From IMG/VR virus record IMGVR_UViG_3300046492_000076, positions 1 to 38,814 of that record: 38,814 bases of DNA. One strand, 5' to 3'. The position numbers were made by a program, and so were the translations under genes. Below the pieces are notes generated by a model, which worked only from the letters and a program-made list of their open reading frames with translations, was not told the DNA's origin and searched no databases. Below are positions 1,248 to 37,249 of this stretch, piece by piece. How positions within the stretch are numbered: the stretch's first letter is position 1; each line of letters begins with the position of its first letter. This stretch comes from a virus.

Positions 1248-1268
1248 GGGCTGAGGGTCTGGGGTTGG

Positions 1269-1288
1269 ACCTACTCAATTGAGTAGGT
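1269..1288. promoter_or_regulatory. Palindromic operator/stoperator site 1
   Basis: Perfect 20-bp palindrome ACCTACTCAATTGAGTAGGT, extended to GGACC/GGTCC arms at 1267-1290. It fills the gap between the capsid and connector genes. A hairpin or bidirectional terminator role is also possible. Confidence 0.75.
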
Positions 1289-1316
1289 CCGGCCCCGTTC
1301 CCGGGAAGGCGCACGG

Positions 1317-3145: not shown

Positions 3146-3147
3146 GC

Positions 3148-3167
3148 ACGTACTCAATTGAGTAGGT
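3148..3167. promoter_or_regulatory. Palindromic operator/stoperator site 2
   Basis: Core TACTCAATTGAGTA is perfect, with one arm mismatch (ACG instead of ACC on the left). It fills the 28-base gap between the tail tube gene and gene 3174. Confidence 0.7.
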
Positions 3168-3173
3168 GACCCC

Positions 3174-6263: not shown

Positions 6264-6273
6264 GAGGTTGGGG

Positions 6274-6293
6274 GCCTACTCAATTGAGTAGGT
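6274..6293. promoter_or_regulatory. Palindromic operator/stoperator site 3
   Basis: CCTACTCAATTGAGTAGG is perfect at 6275-6292, inside the gap between the tape measure and distal tail genes. Confidence 0.72.
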
Positions 6294-6312
6294 CCCCTAG
6301 GAGGGGCTGAGC

Positions 6313-9216: not shown

Positions 9217-9218
9217 GG

Positions 9219-9238
9219 ACCTACTCAATTGAGTGGGT
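9219..9238. promoter_or_regulatory. Palindromic operator/stoperator site 4
   Basis: ACCTACTCAATTGAGTGGGT: one change (A to G) in the right arm, extended by GG/CC to 9217-9240. It separates gene 8974 from the fibre gene. Confidence 0.68.
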
Positions 9239-9253
9239 CCTGAGGGAGGCACC

Positions 9254-11592: not shown

Positions 11593-11835
11593 GTGGCCGG
11601 CGTCTGGCCCAATCTCACGGAGCGTGACAAATTGAAGGCTTGGACGAAGGCGCACGCAACCCGGCTTTACGCGGTGCTGTCCGTGGCCGTGGTGGTGTTC
11701 GCGCACTACCGGCCCGGGGTTCCTGTGGACGCGGTGCTTACCGGCGCGGGTGCGCTGCTAGGTGTCGGCGAGGCTGCCCAGCGTGCGGCGAAGAATGCGG
11801 CGAAGGCCGTTCCCGTGGCGAAGCGAAAGCGGTAG
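11593..11835 (+). CDS. Putative holin
   Basis: An 80-residue protein starting GTG, after AGGGGC. It has two hydrophobic segments (residues ~26-40 LYAVLSVAVVVFAHY and ~47-60 VDAVLTGAGALLGVG) and a strongly basic C-terminus (AKNAAKAVPVAKRKR). This is the usual plan of small phage holins, and it is directly downstream of the endolysin. It would form the membrane lesion that releases endolysin. Assignment is from topology and position. Confidence 0.68.
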   Translation: MAGVWPNLTERDKLKAWTKAHATRLYAVLSVAVVVFAHYRPGVPVDAVLTGAGALLGVGEAAQRAAKNAAKAVPVAKRKR

Positions 11836-11866
11836 GCAATCGACTCCCTAGCCCCTAATTGAGAAC
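11833..11866 (+). promoter_or_regulatory. Candidate phage-specific promoter element E1 (kinase)
   Basis: TAGGCAATCGACTCCCTAG, then CCCCTAATTGAGAAC. It belongs to the recurring element family and starts about 55 bases before the kinase ATG, at the junction between late and early genes. Confidence 0.55.
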
Positions 11867-11889
11867 ACCGGCTAGGGAGAGAAGGCCGA

Positions 11890-12614: not shown

Positions 12615-13925
12615 ATGGACGCGAAGGTCTGGGAGATCATCACGGCGGGCGACGCGGACGAGTGGCACGCCTTCCCCGAAGGGTTCAACACGCTGTGCTC
12701 CCCGGACCTTCTGTCCCAGGGTGCGGAGCGCTTCACGGCAGATGAGATGTTCTCCTCGGAATCGTCTGCGGAGGTCTGCCCGGAGTGCTACAGTAAGCCT
12801 CGCAAGTCCACCACGAAGCACAAGCCGAAGGGCAAGACCATGGCAGCGAAGAGCACCGCGACCGACACGGCCACCGCTGAGGTCAAGTACGACGTCACGA
12901 AGCCCGAAGGCAAGGCGGCCCTTGAGACCATTGCCGCCAACGCTGAGCGCATCCTGAGCCTACGCGCTGAGGACAACGAAGAGGCCGTTAAGGCCCTGTT
13001 CGCCGAGACGGACGAGATGATCAAGCGGCTGTCCGGCAAGGGTGTTGCCGCCTTCCGGGCCACGGCTAAGAAGCAAGTTTCGGACGCGCTCGACGCGGAG
13101 ATCGTGAAGCCGTCCACGGAGATTGCCCTTCCGACCGACTACCGGGAGATTGAGGGTGTCTCCGCGCTGGTGGACGAAGGCGCGAAGAAGATCCGCGAGG
13201 GTATCAAGGTCGGGCTCAAGATGGTGGACCTTGCCCGCTCCGTGGGTGAGATTCAGCTTGCCCAGCGGCTCAAGATCATCGACCCGAAGACCGGGCTGCC
13301 GGACCTGAACGCCGAGACGAAGCCCGCTAAGGACTCTTCGAAGGACACCTACGGCATTGTCCTGTCGGAGATCGCGGCGGACGACGTAGACGCGAAGGCA
13401 ATGCACGCGTCCATTCAGAAGGCCACTCAGAACCGGCGCTCGGATGTCCTGGTCAAGTTCCTTCGGGACCTTGAGACCGTTCAGACACCGGATGAGATCC
13501 GGTCCCTGTTCCCGACCATTCAGCTTGCGGACGAGAAGGGGGCCGAAGAGTCCTACACGGAAGCCGTGTACGCCCTGTACGCGGAGAAGGGTGTCACGCT
13601 GCCCCGGAAGGGTCGCACGGAGCTTGCGGCGGAAGCGGCGCGTGAGAAGGCCGCTAAGGCGAAGGCTGCCCTTGAGGCGGCGGACAAGCCCAGCGAGGGT
13701 GACAGCGAGGGTGGCGAGGGTGCGGGAGAAGGCGCGGCTGAGGCTGCCCCGGTGGACCCGATCGAGTACGCAACGGCCTACATCACGAAGCTGACGAAGG
13801 CCAACAAGGGTTTGAAGGTGGACGTCTTCGGCAAGCTGGACGACGAAGACAAGTCCAAGACGCTGGACGCGCTGAACGCTCAGCTTGGCACGATCAAGGC
13901 CCTGATTGCGGAACTGAGCGTGTGA
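12615..13925 (+). CDS. Large Ala/Lys/Glu-rich protein of unknown function
   Basis: A 436-residue protein whose function I do not recognise. ATG 12615 (after GAAGGGGCGGG) is chosen because the upstream extension overlaps the promoter. Residues 1-75 contain three cysteines (LCSPD ... VCPEC) suggesting a metal site; a second ATG at 12840 (MAAKSTATD) could give a shorter product. The middle is helical and charged, with a DYREIEGVSALVDEGAKKIREG segment. A Gly/Glu linker near residues 355-375 (EGDSEGGEGAGEGAAEA) joins a helical C-terminal domain. It is cotranscribed with nothing obvious downstream, as a hairpin follows. Confidence 0.75.
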   Translation: MDAKVWEIITAGDADEWHAFPEGFNTLCSPDLLSQGAERFTADEMFSSESSAEVCPECYSKPRKSTTKHKPKGKTMAAKSTATDTATAEVKYDVTKPEGKAALETIAANAERILSLRAEDNEEAVKALFAETDEMIKRLSGKGVAAFRATAKKQVSDALDAEIVKPSTEIALPTDYREIEGVSALVDEGAKKIREGIKVGLKMVDLARSVGEIQLAQRLKIIDPKTGLPDLNAETKPAKDSSKDTYGIVLSEIAADDVDAKAMHASIQKATQNRRSDVLVKFLRDLETVQTPDEIRSLFPTIQLADEKGAEESYTEAVYALYAEKGVTLPRKGRTELAAEAAREKAAKAKAALEAADKPSEGDSEGGEGAGEGAAEAAPVDPIEYATAYITKLTKANKGLKVDVFGKLDDEDKSKTLDALNAQLGTIKALIAELSV

Positions 13926-13944
13926 CCTGCTCAATTGAGTAGGT
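13925..13944. promoter_or_regulatory. Palindromic operator/stoperator site 6
   Basis: ACCTGCTCAATTGAGTAGGT, one base different from consensus. It begins exactly at the stop codon of gene 12615. Confidence 0.7.
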
Positions 13945-13952
13945 GAGCGGCA

Positions 13953-13967
13953 GGCAATCGACTCACT
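13953..13967 (+). promoter_or_regulatory. Partial promoter element E (GGCAATCGACTCACT)
   Basis: The 5' half of the recurring element is intact, but the CTAGCCCCTAAGTGAGA half is replaced by a GC-rich hairpin. It may be a degenerate copy; it lies 74 bases before gene 14027. Confidence 0.4.
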
Positions 13968-13970
13968 CGA

Positions 13971-14000
13971 CGGCCCCGGGGCCAGACTCCGGGGCCGTTC
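13971..14000 (+). terminator. Terminator-like hairpin
   Basis: Perfect 9-bp stem CGGCCCCGG / CCGGGGCCG (13971-13979, 13989-13997), followed by TTCC. It would end the transcript of gene 12615. Confidence 0.6.
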
Positions 14001-14539: not shown

Positions 14540-14562
14540 CATGCCCTCAGCGGGCCGCACAG

Positions 14563-14663
14563 TGACGAAGTGACGTAGTGACTATTACTTGGGAACCACT
14601 CATAGAACAGATACAAGCCATGTAGAGCCCACCGGAAGCGTGCGCCACCGCGTCACTTCGTCA
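14563..14663. repeat. Repeat A: 101-bp element with inverted octamer iterons
   Basis: The left end has TGACGAAGTGACGTAGTGAC (8-base period, TGACGWAG); the right end CGTCACTTCGTCA is the perfect inverse of the first 13 bases. A homologous copy, repeat B, is at 33849-33951; shared blocks include ATTAC, CATAGAAC, ACAAGCC, TGTAGA, ACCGGAA and CGCCAC. It lies between a terminator and promoter element E2. It could be a replication origin or an activator/repressor binding platform. Confidence 0.75.
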
Positions 14664-14666
14664 CCG

Positions 14667-14698
14667 GGCAACTGACTCCCTAGCCCCTAAGTGAGACC
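14667..14698 (+). promoter_or_regulatory. Candidate phage-specific promoter element E2 (nuclease)
   Basis: GGCAACTGACTCCCTAGCCC then CTAAGTGAGACC, starting 61 bases before the nuclease ATG and 3 bases after repeat A. Confidence 0.58.
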
Positions 14699-14727
14699 AA
14701 CACACGGAGCCTAGGGAGGCACCACGG

Positions 14728-15848: not shown

Positions 15849-15879
15849 GGCAATCGGCTCACTAGCCCCTAAGTAGAGG
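15849..15879 (+). promoter_or_regulatory. Candidate phage-specific promoter element E3 (Gp3-like gene)
   Basis: GGCAATCGGCTCACTAGCCC then CTAAGTAGAGG. It is 148 bases upstream of the next start, the longest leader in the family apart from the tRNA copy. Confidence 0.55.
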
Positions 15880-18722: not shown

Positions 18723-18911
18723 ATGCTCGCAATCGTCACGCCGAATGACCCCGGTTGGTTTCCGTGGACGTTCGAAGCGGAGAAGGGGCCGCGCGACGAA
18801 TACGCGGTGACCATTTCGCTTGCGGGTGAGCCGCACGACTCGACCGTGTACGCGACGGCGGACGAAGTGCGAGACATGATCACGGCCCTTAAGGCGGTGC
18901 TCGAAGGCTAG
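18723..18911 (+). CDS. Hypothetical small protein
   Basis: A 62-residue protein from ATG 18723 with AGGGAG upstream. It is MLAIVTPNDPGWFPWTFEAE followed by strands and a C-terminal helix (ATADEVRDMITALKAVL). Unknown function; it ends at element E4. Confidence 0.6.
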   Translation: MLAIVTPNDPGWFPWTFEAEKGPRDEYAVTISLAGEPHDSTVYATADEVRDMITALKAVLEG

Positions 18912-18940
18912 GCAATCGACTCACTCACTTGTCAGTGAAG
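18911..18940 (+). promoter_or_regulatory. Candidate phage-specific promoter element E4 (primase-helicase)
   Basis: GGCAATCGACTCACTCACTT then GTCAGTGAAGG, starting 49 bases before the primase ATG. The 3' half diverges in sequence but keeps an AGTGA block. Confidence 0.52.
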
Positions 18941-21536: not shown

Positions 21537-21564
21537 GGGCACCTACTCAATTGAGTGGGTGCCC
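21537..21564. promoter_or_regulatory. Palindromic operator site 8, long hairpin form
   Basis: GGGCACC and GGTGCCC arms enclose TACTCAATTGAGTG: a 28-bp palindrome with one mismatch in the core. It lies in the gap between primase-helicase and DNA polymerase. Could also terminate or stall transcription. Confidence 0.7.
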
Positions 21565-23741: not shown

Positions 23742-23896
23742 CACGGCATCGCAGCGACGGACGCCCTGATCAAGCCCCGGTCAAAGCAAACGCCCGGGTA
23801 GGGCTTGGTTCGTCGCGTCTCCCGTTCGGCCTGTCCTCGGCACCCCCTTGCCTAAAACAGGTTGTGACCTAGGCCACACGCACTGAGCCCCTTCCG

Positions 23897-23928
23897 GGCA
23901 ATCGACTCACTCACTTCCGAGTGAGACC
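23897..23928 (+). promoter_or_regulatory. Candidate phage-specific promoter element E5 (sigma-like gene)
   Basis: GGCAATCGACTCACTCACTT then CCGAGTGAGACC, starting 52 bases before the sigma-like gene. Inverted arms CTCACT/AGTGAG are clear here. Confidence 0.57.
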
Positions 23929-23948
23929 AACCGGAAGGACACACGCTC

Positions 23949-24839
23949 ATGTCTGACAGCCTCACTCTCGACACCATCCGCGCCGCTCAGGGCAATGACC
24001 TCAACGCCACCACGGACGTGATCAAGGCGACGGAGTCCCGGGTCATGGCGCTTGCCAACCGGGCCGCTAGCCGGATGCGCGACGGTTCCCGCCGGGCACT
24101 GGACCACGTAGAAGAGTTCGCACAGATCGGCCGTGTGGCCGTGTGGGAGTCCCTGAGCCGCTTCGAGGGTGACAGCGTCGATTCCTTCTACGGCTTCGTC
24201 TACGCCACCGTAGAGCGCCGTCTGTTGGACGCTGTGCGGGAAGAGCGGACCCCCGGTGCCGACAGCGACGCACTAAAGGTCTTCCTGAGCATGCTGCCCC
24301 TTGCCGACAATGACGGGCACCTTGCCGAGAAGCTGTCCCAGACCGTTCCGCCTAAGGGACGTCGCCTGAGCGCGGACCGTGCGAACGCTGCCCGGCTTGC
24401 GTGGCAGGGGACTGACTCTCTCGACGCGTTCACGCCCGGAGACCCGGACGAAGGAACCGACTCGATCGCGGACACCCTCGCTTCCGCCCTGGGCATCCCG
24501 GAAGACCTGCTCACGTCTGCTGACTTCACGGCAGATGAGTCCCGCCGGAAGCACGCGATCGTTAACGCGATCTTGGACCTGATGGGCCAGGGACAGCGTG
24601 ACGTCATCCGGCACAGCTTCGGTATCGGCGGGGTTGAGGACTTCGGCTATGGCCGTGAGGACAACCGGGACGCTGAGCTTGCCGCCTTCCTGGGCACTGC
24701 CGTTGGGAACCTCCGTCCGGCCCGCACGAAGGGTCTCAAGTCCTTCGCTAAGCGCTACGTCAAGGCCGTGGCGACGTCGCCGGAGCACGCTGCGGAACTG
24801 ACCGAAGCCGCCGCAAAGAACGTGGGCCGTCAGCCGTAA
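23949..24839 (+). CDS. Sigma-factor-like protein
   Basis: A 296-residue protein with sigma-70-like traits. Residues ~50-98 resemble region 2 (VEEFAQIGRVAVWESLSRFE, then FYGFVYATVERRLLDAVREE). Residues ~205-275 resemble region 4 (ILDLMGQGQRDVIRHSFGIG ... LAAFLGTAVGNLRPARTKGL). A long acidic insert of ~100 residues separates them. It may direct RNA polymerase to phage promoters such as the E elements, one of which precedes this gene. phiC31 early promoters are known to need a phage factor; equating this protein with that factor is inference. Confidence 0.66.
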   Translation: MSDSLTLDTIRAAQGNDLNATTDVIKATESRVMALANRAASRMRDGSRRALDHVEEFAQIGRVAVWESLSRFEGDSVDSFYGFVYATVERRLLDAVREERTPGADSDALKVFLSMLPLADNDGHLAEKLSQTVPPKGRRLSADRANAARLAWQGTDSLDAFTPGDPDEGTDSIADTLASALGIPEDLLTSADFTADESRRKHAIVNAILDLMGQGQRDVIRHSFGIGGVEDFGYGREDNRDAELAAFLGTAVGNLRPARTKGLKSFAKRYVKAVATSPEHAAELTEAAAKNVGRQP

Positions 24840-24845
24840 GCGGCA

Positions 24846-24877
24846 GGCAATCGACCCCCTAGCCCCTAAGTGAGACC
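24846..24877 (+). promoter_or_regulatory. Candidate phage-specific promoter element E6
   Basis: GGCAATCGACCCCCTAGCCC then CTAAGTGAGACC, directly after the sigma-like gene and 51 bases before ATG 24897. Confidence 0.57.
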
Positions 24878-28772: not shown

Positions 28773-28788
28773 GGCACCACCTAGGGGG

Positions 28789-28808
28789 ACCTACTCAATT
28801 GAGTAGGT
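28789..28808. promoter_or_regulatory. Palindromic operator/stoperator site 12
   Basis: Perfect 20-bp palindrome, with outer GGG/CCC arms extending it to 26 bp (28786-28811), followed by TTCTGTTGTTT. It could also terminate transcription. Confidence 0.75.
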
Positions 28809-28884
28809 CCCTTCTGTTGTTTCCGGGGGCACGCGCATGGTTAAATCTTCTCAGCAGGCAGGGACGACGAAACGGAGTAGGGCC

Positions 28885-29163: not shown

Positions 29164-29192
29164 GGACCTACTCAATTGAGTAGGTCCTTTTT
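29164..29192 (+). terminator. Palindrome site 13 as a terminator
   Basis: GGACC/GGTCC arms around the palindrome (core 29166-29185), directly followed by TTTTT. This copy has all parts of a rho-independent terminator and ends gene 28885, while its core matches the operator family. Confidence 0.7.
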
Positions 29193-31293: not shown

Positions 31294-31802
31294 CCGCGAA
31301 GGCGAAGATTCCGCAGACCCACACGGGGCTAGTCCGGCAGGCACGGCGTATCAACCGGGAGCTAGCTGAGGTCTACCCGTACGCACACTGTGAGCTTGAC
31401 TTTGAGAACGCGTGGCAACTGCTAGTCGCAACCGTGCTCAGCGCTCAGACCACGGACCTACGGGTCAATCAGGTGACCCCTGCCCTGTTCGCTAAGTACC
31501 CGACCCCTGATGATCTCTGGGGTGCGGACCTGGGCGACGTTGAGGCCCTGATCCGGCCTACCGGCTTCTACCGGGCGAAGGCCAGAACCGTTGTGCGCCT
31601 TGCTACGGCCCTAGTGGCTGACCATGGCGGAATGGTGCCGCTCACGCTCCCGGAGCTTGTCAGCCTGCCCGGTGTGGGCCGGAAGACAGCGTTCGTGGTC
31701 ACGGGCAACGCCAGCGCTGACCAGGCAAGCCGTGCGGGTCTGACGAACCGTAGTGCTAAGGTGTGCACCCCCTTCGGTTTTCACACTTCGGCACCACGGT
31801 AG
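31290..31802 (+). pseudogene. nth: Truncated endonuclease III (nth) N-terminal fragment
   Basis: A 170-residue frame. Residues ~15-143 match Streptomyces endonuclease III closely: AHCELDFENAWQLLVATVLS, AQTTDLRVNQVTPALFAKYP, RPTGFYRAKARTVVRLATAL, and the helix-hairpin-helix LPGVGRKTAFVVTGNA with the catalytic lysine. The match ends there: the catalytic aspartate region (VDTH) and the Fe-S cluster cysteines are missing, replaced by ~28 unrelated residues running through the candidate attP. It should be inactive alone. The end point beside the integrase suggests a link to the attachment site. GTG start overlaps the previous stop. Confidence 0.85.
31753..31794. other. Candidate attP
   Basis: Imperfect inverted repeat GTGCTAAGGTGTG (31753-31765) and CACACTTCGGCAC (31782-31794), 10 of 13 positions pairing, around CACCCCCTTCGGTTTT. 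Size and form fit serine-integrase attP sites (about 40-50 bp). It lies just upstream of int and just after the point where nth similarity stops. Inference from position and symmetry. Confidence 0.5.
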
Positions 31803-31832
31803 GCAACCGCCTCCCTAGCCCGTAGGTGAGAG
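31802..31832 (+). promoter_or_regulatory. Candidate phage-specific promoter element E7 (integrase)
   Basis: GGCAACCGCCTCCCTAGCCC then GTAGGTGAGAG, a more diverged copy 65 bases before the integrase ATG and after candidate attP. In this order integration would keep this promoter with int. Confidence 0.48.
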
Positions 31833-31866
31833 CCCGCAAGGGTCCACCTGCTACCTAGGGAGACCC

Positions 31867-33676: not shown

Positions 33677-33848
33677 CCATGTCTGCCCATATGACATGTC
33701 CATGCCTATCAATGCAGGGTGTAAGCGTCCGCTCACGGTGGGTGAGGCACCTACTCAGCGGGATTTCAGCGCCGGACGCGTGAGGCGATTGCCCCTGAAC
33801 AATCTGTAACCAATCACCTAGCAATCACACCCTCAGTAATCAACACCA

Positions 33849-33951
33849 TGACGAAGTGACGAAATGACCATTACCCGGTAACCATCCATAGAACCAATAA
33901 ACAAGCCCTGTAGACGCAACCGGAACCGCACGCCACTACGTCATTTCGTCA
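33849..33951. repeat. Repeat B: 103-bp homologue of repeat A
   Basis: Left end TGACGAAGTGACGAAATGAC (octamer period); right end, read in reverse, TGACGAAATGACGTAGTGGC. The interior shares blocks with repeat A in the same order and spacing (two extra bases). Both copies follow a terminator and precede an E element. Confidence 0.75.
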
Positions 33952-33991
33952 TCCGCCCGAACAGTGGTGCGCGTCACACGCCATCCGGGCA

Positions 33992-34038
33992 GGCAATCGA
34001 CTCACTAGGCAATCCACTCACTAGTTACTAAGTAGAGG
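33992..34038 (+). promoter_or_regulatory. Tandem promoter element E8 (tRNA unit)
   Basis: GGCAATCGACTCACTA at 33992-34007 is followed at once by GGCAATCCACTCACTA at 34008-34023, then GTTACTAAGTAGAGG. The second copy is full length and lies 143 bases before tRNA-Ile. Confidence 0.52.
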
Positions 34039-34576: not shown

Positions 34577-34585
34577 CAATCGCTG

Positions 34586-34605
34586 ACCTACTCAATTGAG
34601 TAGGT
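34586..34605. promoter_or_regulatory. Palindromic operator/stoperator site 14
   Basis: Perfect ACCTACTCAATTGAGTAGGT, between tRNA-Leu and the HNH gene. Confidence 0.75.
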
Positions 34606-34630
34606 CCACTTCTCGTTAGGTTTCTCGGCT

Positions 34631-35651: not shown

Positions 35652-37208
35652 GTGACCGGCATTGATCCTGTGATCGCGCGGCACATTCCGGAAGACGCCC
35701 CGTTCCCTTCTGAGGGTTACCGGGTCGCTAACTGGATTGAGAAGTTCTGTTACCTCACGGGGTCCTTCGCCGGACAGCCGTTCAAGCTACTGCCGTGGCA
35801 GCGCGCTCTTCTAATCGACGCGTACGCGCTGGTTCGTGATTCCTTCGGGCGCTACGTCCGTAAGCACCGGACCATTTGCGTGTGCGTCGCCCGTAAGAAC
35901 GGGAAGAGCACGCTTGCGGCAGCCATCATGCTTTACCACCTAGTTGCCGACCGGGCCGACGCTCAGCGACAGATCATTGCCGCCGCGAACGACCGGAACC
36001 AGGCACGCATGGTGTTCGACGCTGCGAAGCAAATGGTGAATGCCTCGCCGAAGCTCAGCGCAGTGTGCGACGTTCAGCGGGACATCATCCGCTTTAAGGA
36101 CTCGACCTATCGCGTTGTCTCGGCGGACGCCGGAAGGCAGCAGGGTCTCAACCCGTCCGCTGTATCGCTGGACGAATACGCCTTCTCGAAGTCGGCGGAT
36201 TTGTTCGACGCGCTAACCCTGGGATCGGCCGCACGGAATCAACCAATCTTCCTTGTGATTTCCACTGCCGGACCTGATCCCGATGGACCCTTTGCCGCGC
36301 TGTGTGAGCAGGGGGAGCGCGTTAACTCCGGCGAAGCCGTAGACGAGACTCTGTTCTACCGGTCGTGGGGTCCGCGTATCGGGGACACGGTGGATCACCT
36401 AGACCCTGAGGTCTGGCGAGTCTGCAACCCGTCTTACGACATCCTGAACCCGGAAGACTTCAAGGCCGCTTCCCAGCGGAGCAGTGAGGCTAGCTTCCGG
36501 ATCTACCGGCTTTCACAGTTCGTCCGTGGCGCGTCTACGTGGCTGCCTCACGGCCTATGGGACTCCCTTGCGACCGAAGACACCCTAGAGCCCGGAACGG
36601 CCGTTGTACTGGGCTTTGACGGGTCCTGGAAGGGTGACAGTACGGCGCTGGTGGCTTGCCGGGTCGAAGACCTTCGGGTGTTCGTGCTCGGCCACTGGGA
36701 GGCTCCGGCGGATGACGCTCATTGGCGTGTTCCTATGGCTGACGTCCGGTCCGCGCTGAACGATGCCCTAGACGCGTACACGGTCCGGAACCTTGTTGCC
36801 GACCCGTACCGCTGGGAAGAGACGCTAGACAACCTTGAGGCGGACGGCCATCCGGTTGAGGCGTTCCCTACTAACTCCCTTAAGCGCATGGTCCCGGCTA
36901 CTCAGGCCGTGTACGACGCTGCCCGGGACGGCCGGTTGTCCCATGACGGTAACCCGGCATTGGCGCGGCACGTGGGTAACGCTGTGCTCCGCGAAGACAA
37001 GAACGGCGCGCGGGTCACGAAGGAATACGCGGCTTCTCGCCGAAAGATTGACCTTGCCATTGCCATGATCCTTGCCGTTCACGGCGCTGTGATGTGGCGC
37101 GAGGAAAACGCTGGGCTTGTCCATGACGCCCCGATTATCGCCACCGGCCACCGCGAAGACGGAACGGCCTGGGCCTACGGCGGAACTTCCGATCTGTTTG
37201 ACGACTGA
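35652..37208 (+). CDS. Large terminase subunit
   Basis: A 518-residue packaging motor. Walker A CVARKNGKSTLAAAIMLYH near residues 77-95, Walker B AVSLDEYAF near residue 168, motif III FLVISTAG near residue 198, and the nuclease domain with VLGFDGSWKGDSTALVACR near residue 318 and DPYRWEETLDN near residue 382. It cuts concatemers and pumps DNA into proheads. It is the HK97/phiC31-type (Terminase_1) family. GTG start; palindrome 15 follows the stop. Confidence 0.94.
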   Translation: MTGIDPVIARHIPEDAPFPSEGYRVANWIEKFCYLTGSFAGQPFKLLPWQRALLIDAYALVRDSFGRYVRKHRTICVCVARKNGKSTLAAAIMLYHLVADRADAQRQIIAAANDRNQARMVFDAAKQMVNASPKLSAVCDVQRDIIRFKDSTYRVVSADAGRQQGLNPSAVSLDEYAFSKSADLFDALTLGSAARNQPIFLVISTAGPDPDGPFAALCEQGERVNSGEAVDETLFYRSWGPRIGDTVDHLDPEVWRVCNPSYDILNPEDFKAASQRSSEASFRIYRLSQFVRGASTWLPHGLWDSLATEDTLEPGTAVVLGFDGSWKGDSTALVACRVEDLRVFVLGHWEAPADDAHWRVPMADVRSALNDALDAYTVRNLVADPYRWEETLDNLEADGHPVEAFPTNSLKRMVPATQAVYDAARDGRLSHDGNPALARHVGNAVLREDKNGARVTKEYAASRRKIDLAIAMILAVHGAVMWREENAGLVHDAPIIATGHREDGTAWAYGGTSDLFDD

Positions 37209-37227
37209 CCTACTCAATTGAGTAGGT
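37208..37227. promoter_or_regulatory. Palindromic operator/stoperator site 15
   Basis: Perfect ACCTACTCAATTGAGTAGGT starting at the terminase stop, in the gap before portal. Confidence 0.75.
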
Positions 37228-37249
37228 CCCAATCTGAGGGGTGCCCGCA

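Follow-up and report, generated by a model that had tools for sequence, protein, structure and literature searches.

A widely used integrase comes from phage phiC31 (Lomovskayavirus C31), whose early promoters were reportedly mapped in the 1990s and are said to be active only during lytic growth. A repeated element, GGGTTGCCGACTCCCTTAC, stands before the early genes and the tRNA of this phage, and the published early promoters presumably coincide with it. Masked leaders are known from phage T4: the early read-through RNA of gene e folds so that its ribosome site is hidden, whereas promoters within the 5′ arm of the hairpin give rise to RNA that is translated (PMC3014915). In cluster K mycobacteriophages the SAS and ESAS repeats accompany the translation starts of some non-structural genes and mostly share one orientation. 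Subclusters differ in their ESAS consensus; SAS is itself the ribosome site, and RNA pairing is reportedly not supported by the ESAS inverted repeats (PMC3203893). A phage sigma factor, an early promoter of the phiC31 type, and a mask of the T4 type are each already known; what appears to be new is that a phage sigma factor (gp12) can be tied to such an element through co-variation, and that a putative mask over the leader of the sigma gene itself recurs in dozens of phages. No description of the gp12–element tie or of the sigma-leader mask was found in the open-access literature searched.

The stretch of DNA analyzed here (the window, a virus record of 38,814 bases) has the gene order of phiC31 and is a phiC31-like Streptomyces phage. 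Its genes relevant to the present analysis are as follows (start positions, unless a range is given).

11890, dNMP kinase gene
12540, long gene in the repressor position
14728, exonuclease (gp1) gene
15931, gp3 homolog
18960, primase gene
21551, DNA polymerase gene
23949–24839, + strand, gp12-like sigma gene with sigma-70 regions 2 and 4 and a middle segment of ~95 residues
24897, gp13-like gene
31867, serine integrase gene
34151, tRNA-Ile gene, in the tRNA cluster
35652, terminase gene

The open reading frame at 23949–24839 encodes a 296-residue homolog of phiC31 gp12 (~52% identical), with relatives in 31 phage records at 28–54% identity; homology and a position after the DNA polymerase gene, as in the phiC31 order, place it in the gp12 family, and it falls in PHROG 15865, RNA polymerase sigma factor (E 5.6e-95). 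A first-pass annotation had called the product sigma-like, with an insert of ~100 residues between regions 2 and 4; both points are borne out. Sigma-70 region 2 is detected by Pfam (PF04542, 30.3 bits against a cut-off of 24), and a profile of 52 relatives searched against solved structures matches SigB region 2 over residues 9–97 (E 8e-8) and RpoD region 4 over residues 192–261 (E 5e-5). Region 4, with its helix-turn-helix, is seen by the alignment profile only, the single sequence giving no Pfam match there. Nearly all of the best Foldseek matches to an AlphaFold2 model (mean pLDDT 86.7) are sigma factors; whole-chain TM-scores are low, as expected for flexibly linked domains. The stretch between the two regions measures ~95 residues and holds a segment strongly conserved in the family, PPKGRRLSADRAxAARLAW; residues 106–155, PPKGRRLSADRA, are among the family's most conserved stretches. 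Phage phiC31-type members, gp12 of phiC31 included, have ~100 further residues after it. By profile and fold search, gp12 is thus a sigma-70 relative with a SigB/FliA-like region 2 and an RpoD-like region 4; it departs from that family in its middle segment, where the PPKG(R/K)RLS motif lies and no sigma region 3 match above cut-off was found, and in the contiguous core of the element described below.

The same annotation had listed a repeated promoter-like element before this gene and others. Searched with up to 2 mismatches, GGCAATCGACTC has 17 matches in the window against 4.3 (sd 2.0) in shuffles, including every site on that list, and CTAGCCCCTAAGTGAGA with up to 3 mismatches has four against 0.04 expected. 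One listed position needs correction (11833, the true start being 11835), and the spacing of about 50–65 bases before early gene starts applies to most copies (49–65), the exceptions being the gp3 homolog and the tandem pair before the tRNA cluster. All copies lie on the + strand.

11835–11864, + strand, element before the dNMP kinase gene, 55 nt to start codon 11890
13953–13964, + strand, half copy, second half missing, followed by a strong GC hairpin
14667–14696, + strand, element before the gp1 exonuclease gene, 61 nt to start codon 14728
15849–15878, + strand, element before the gp3 homolog, 82 nt to start codon 15931
18911–18940, + strand, element before the primase gene, 49 nt to start codon 18960
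23897–23926, + strand, element before the sigma gene, 52 nt to start codon 23949 (core 23897–23914; second block T23922, G23923, A23924, G23925)
24846–24875, + strand, element before the gp13-like gene, 51 nt to start codon 24897
31802–31831, + strand, element before the serine integrase gene, 65 nt to start codon 31867
33992–34037, + strand, tandem element with starts at 33992 and 34008, 143–159 nt before the tRNA-Ile gene

At the half copy (region 13953–14000), the GC hairpin ACGGCCCCGG...CCGGGGCCGT occupies the expected initiator place and an operator-like palindrome lies just upstream; this may be a disabled or attenuated promoter beside the repressor gene. A block of ~110 bp occurs twice in the window (14557–14666 and 33843–33957), each time just upstream of the element, before gp1 and before the tRNA cluster; its ends are inverted (GACGAAGTGACGTAGTGAC and GCGTCACTTCGTCAC), and it possibly represents host-type promoters or a replication site.

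In a profile of 106 phiC31-like and 57 window-like sites, a contiguous core spans positions of about −1 to 18 and is followed, at a fixed distance, by a second block centered on G27-A28-R29 (G27 is present in 89% of window-like sites). The core does not divide cleanly into −35 and −10 boxes, and separate boxes were dropped as a description, the spacer between core and second block (positions 19–25) being poorly conserved. This pattern of conservation suggests that the second block is the start region, with initiation ~27 nt after the element start, at core position 27–28, and thus a probable sigma gene start site at ~23923–23924. The promoter would then probably consist of one contiguous core plus an initiator, a point that the first-pass annotation had missed.

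That the element is a promoter is indicated by its copies before tRNA clusters, where nothing is translated. The tandem pair at 33992 and 34008 precedes no protein gene and has no start codon to serve, and in all ten phages examined a copy stands 128–148 nt ahead of the right-end cluster, counted to its first tRNA, again with no gene start to serve. The element, repeated on one strand 45–75 nt before early genes and also before the tRNA cluster, has the arrangement expected of a phiC31-type early promoter; in sequence it differs from the element of phiC31. The place of most copies, 50–65 nt before start codons, is where start-associated motifs generally sit, and covarying hairpins that mask the Shine-Dalgarno sequence at the sigma gene and several others (see below) would also suit an RNA leader motif of purely translational function, such as a riboregulator or protein-binding hairpin, with promoters elsewhere. 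We consider this improbable: many copies are unmasked, the core is kept whether it pairs or not, the second block stays at its fixed distance, and the tRNA-cluster copies were decisive in rejecting a purely translational element. Like SAS and ESAS, the element is a mostly one-orientation motif repeated at gene starts and varying by group; here, however, the paired arms covary, with the conserved core placed upstream. An identity with SAS/ESAS (a 13 bp ribosome-site repeat, GGGATAGGAGCCC, and non-pairing 17 bp inverted repeats) was dismissed, the motif being different and the pairing of the element covarying.

Repeated intergenic sites are also typical of phage repressor operators, a reading of the element that is most improbable and was rejected; the element is asymmetric and confined to one strand, and a separate palindromic repeat probably fills that role. 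This palindrome, GACCTACTCAATTGAGTAGGTC, and its variants lie in many intergenic gaps of the window (1261–1296, 3147–3168, 6270–6297, 9217–9240, 13925–13944, 21537–21564, 28786–28811, 29164–29187, 34585–34606, and 37207–37228); it is the counterpart, with a changed center, of an equivalent palindrome in phiC31, CTACTCACGTGAGTAG. The two repeats are probable repressor operators, and relatives use unrelated palindromes in the same role (for example, CACCTAGTAACGTTACTAGGTG in Shady).

To compare phages, 61 gp12-bearing loci were gathered from virus and genome contigs, together with relatives from phage collections, giving 57 distinct leaders, and an 18-mer from each phage's gp12 leader was searched in that same phage. 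Most loci have 3–13 copies of it on the + strand; copies on the − strand are almost absent. The sequence varies widely among phages (GGTCACCGACTCCCTTAC, GGGCTTAACCCACTCACT, GGGAATTCCTTGCTCTCT, and others); such concerted change within each phage indicates a trans-acting reader. Core distance is correlated with gp12 distance (r 0.78–0.83), and remains so given DNA polymerase, primase, gp3, or gp1 (partial r 0.66, 0.67, 0.79, and 0.76, respectively; all p 2e-4); given gp12, by contrast, the partial Mantel correlations of those four proteins with the core are only 0.18, 0.10, −0.02, and 0.09. Because the gp12-leader core adjoins gp12, the test was repeated with the leaders of distant genes, compared independently of that core. 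The primase, gp1, and gp3 leaders, none of them near gp12, track gp12 given their own gene (partial r 0.42, 0.62, and 0.53), and the DNA polymerase leader, which has no element in the window and served as an unplanned negative control, does not follow gp12 (r 0.06).

Since the element follows gp12 divergence after control for other proteins, even at distant leaders, gp12 is very likely its reader; co-variation is an association and not proof of binding. The per-phage versions, the co-variation, and the tRNA copies together give good support to the earlier idea of a sigma-like protein with a repeated promoter before its own gene, and self-activation of the sigma gene is what we infer from it. 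Host RNA polymerase with another phage factor might instead read the element, gp12 serving a later promoter class or merely co-evolving. Many small uncharacterized proteins encoded among the early genes are potential activators, and the first gp12 must arise from some gp12-independent promoter; the partial Mantel tests, however, pick out gp12 against four other early proteins, and gp12 belongs to the sigma-70 family, so that we hold such a factor to be unlikely.

The promoter element before the sigma gene is well supported; the first-pass annotation had overlooked a predicted Shine-Dalgarno-masking hairpin there and at some other copies.

23890–23938, + strand, sigma-gene masking hairpin of two stems, with covariation and predicted masking
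23890–23897 with 23931–23938, + strand, outer stem of the sigma leader, CCTTCCGG with CCGGAAGG, the CCGGAAGG arm holding the Shine-Dalgarno sequence
23906–23912 with 23919–23925, + strand, inner stem of the sigma leader, CTCACTC with GAGTGAG
11844–11853 with 11870–11879, + strand, dNMP kinase mask, CTCCCTAGCC with GGCTAGGGAG, the GGCTAGGGAG arm holding the Shine-Dalgarno sequence
14676–14683 with 14711–14718, + strand, gp1 exonuclease mask, CTCCCTAG with CTAGGGAG (Shine-Dalgarno)
31811–31818 with 31855–31862, + strand, integrase mask, CTCCCTAG with CTAGGGAG

Most of the 57 leaders have a hairpin of the sigma-leader type, the stems differing considerably in sequence. Since the Shine-Dalgarno region was misaligned in some rows of a MAFFT alignment of 16 leaders, covariation was assessed by permuting arms between leaders (24 leaders <80% identical, 10,000 permutations) rather than with a covariance model. 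Arms pair with their own partners at −18.4 kcal/mol, compared with −12.9 kcal/mol when arms are swapped among the 24 leaders (z −8.9; none of the 10,000 permutations did as well); control segments from upstream are flat (z −0.3 and +1.3), pairing of the 5′ arm with an unrelated segment upstream scores z −1.8, and the inner stem covaries at z −6.4. An Rfam scan of the sigma leader gave no match above gathering score, only chance matches. The predicted cost of opening the Shine-Dalgarno sequence averages 9.9 kcal/mol in full-length RNA and 3.5 kcal/mol in RNA from the inferred start (beginning ~26 nt before the start codon), the difference exceeding 3 kcal/mol in 48 of 57 leaders. In five annotated relatives, masking is stronger at the 47 gene starts that have the element than at the 101 that lack it (mean z 1.75 versus 0.0, p 1.1e-4), also when gp12 is left out (p 0.0016).

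The promoter does not require masking, as leaders and element genes without it indicate: no strong, convincing mask was found in several sigma leaders (L013, L015, L016, and L041) or at many element genes (gp2, gp3, gp13, and primase), and in the window the Shine-Dalgarno sequences of the primase (18960) and gp13-like (24897) genes are unmasked. Very long element hairpins are present in the dNMP kinase leaders of phage TG1 (L005, 16790–16846) and Rowa (L003, 18691–18746); that of TG1 has ~19 bp followed by TTTTT, and both could also be terminators in read-through RNA.

The stems contain few G-U pairs, and complementarity is strong on the other strand too (z −6.8), so that a DNA-level palindrome remains compatible with the pairing data. 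The hairpin might accordingly act as DNA, either as an operator palindrome or as an extruded hairpin promoter of the kind found in coliphage N4, pairing being nearly all Watson-Crick and significant on both strands. We judge this very unlikely and prefer an RNA hairpin, since the Shine-Dalgarno sequence is recurrently involved (the 3′ arm covers it in masked leaders) and the loops are variable; loop lengths and stem register differ between phages, and the tRNA copies do not share the sigma-leader hairpin.

With the hairpin taken as RNA, the closest parallel is found in the T4 leaders of gene e (lysozyme), soc, 49, and I-TevI, where, as proposed here, the hairpin hiding the ribosome site contains a promoter in its 5′ arm; prediction and covariation both point to a conserved hairpin over the Shine-Dalgarno sequence in read-through RNA of the sigma leader. 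The gene e leader is unrelated in sequence, and its mask delays a late gene until late promoters fire, whereas the genes concerned here are the sigma gene itself, early genes, and the integrase gene.

We regard as probable a scheme in which the phage has its own promoter class, read by gp12-RNA polymerase, and a masked sigma leader released by local starts. Host RNA polymerase carrying gp12 (gene 23949) would bind and read the element, a contiguous core of 18–20 bp with an initiator block ~27 nt from the core start. At the sigma, dNMP kinase, exonuclease, and integrase genes, the promoter core lies in the 5′ arm of the predicted hairpin and the Shine-Dalgarno sequence in its 3′ arm. Read-through RNA from upstream, carrying the whole hairpin, would be poorly translated; RNA begun at the local promoter would be free of the 5′ arm and open to translation, as in T4 gene e. 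Most sigma factor would then come from transcripts initiated by sigma itself, and the feedback would be sharper than that of a promoter alone.

A further candidate site lies upstream of the sigma hairpin.

23863–23878, + strand, CRP-type palindrome TGTGACCTAGGCCACA, without a second copy of this type in the window

The mycobacterial CRP consensus is TGTGA-N6-TCACA (PMC7739888), and TGTGACCTAGGCCACA fits this consensus, itself mycobacterial, with one change. Of the 57 leaders, 25 have the pattern GTGR-N6-YCAC upstream of gp12, against 0.3 expected, and the site upstream of gp12 is the sole such site in the window, in phiC31, in Rowa, and in effect in TG1; its distance to the start codon varies from ~65 to 95 nt. 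A host CRP-type regulator would be a plausible primer of the sigma gene. More tentatively, and with some doubt, the switch may be double-gated: sigma mRNA would be translatable only if gp12-RNA polymerase starts inside the hairpin, leaky read-through in the lysogen would give no sigma factor, and a host CRP-type regulator at 23863 would set the first burst according to cAMP state.

For early-promoter recognition in phiC31, gp12 as the sigma factor that reads these promoters is a specific, testable answer. The family supplies ~57 natural sigma–promoter pairs of changing specificity, and such phage-specific pairs, with a leak guard, would serve as orthogonal expression tools in Streptomyces. For the phages themselves, gating of the sigma gene at the RNA level would give the lytic switch an all-or-none character.
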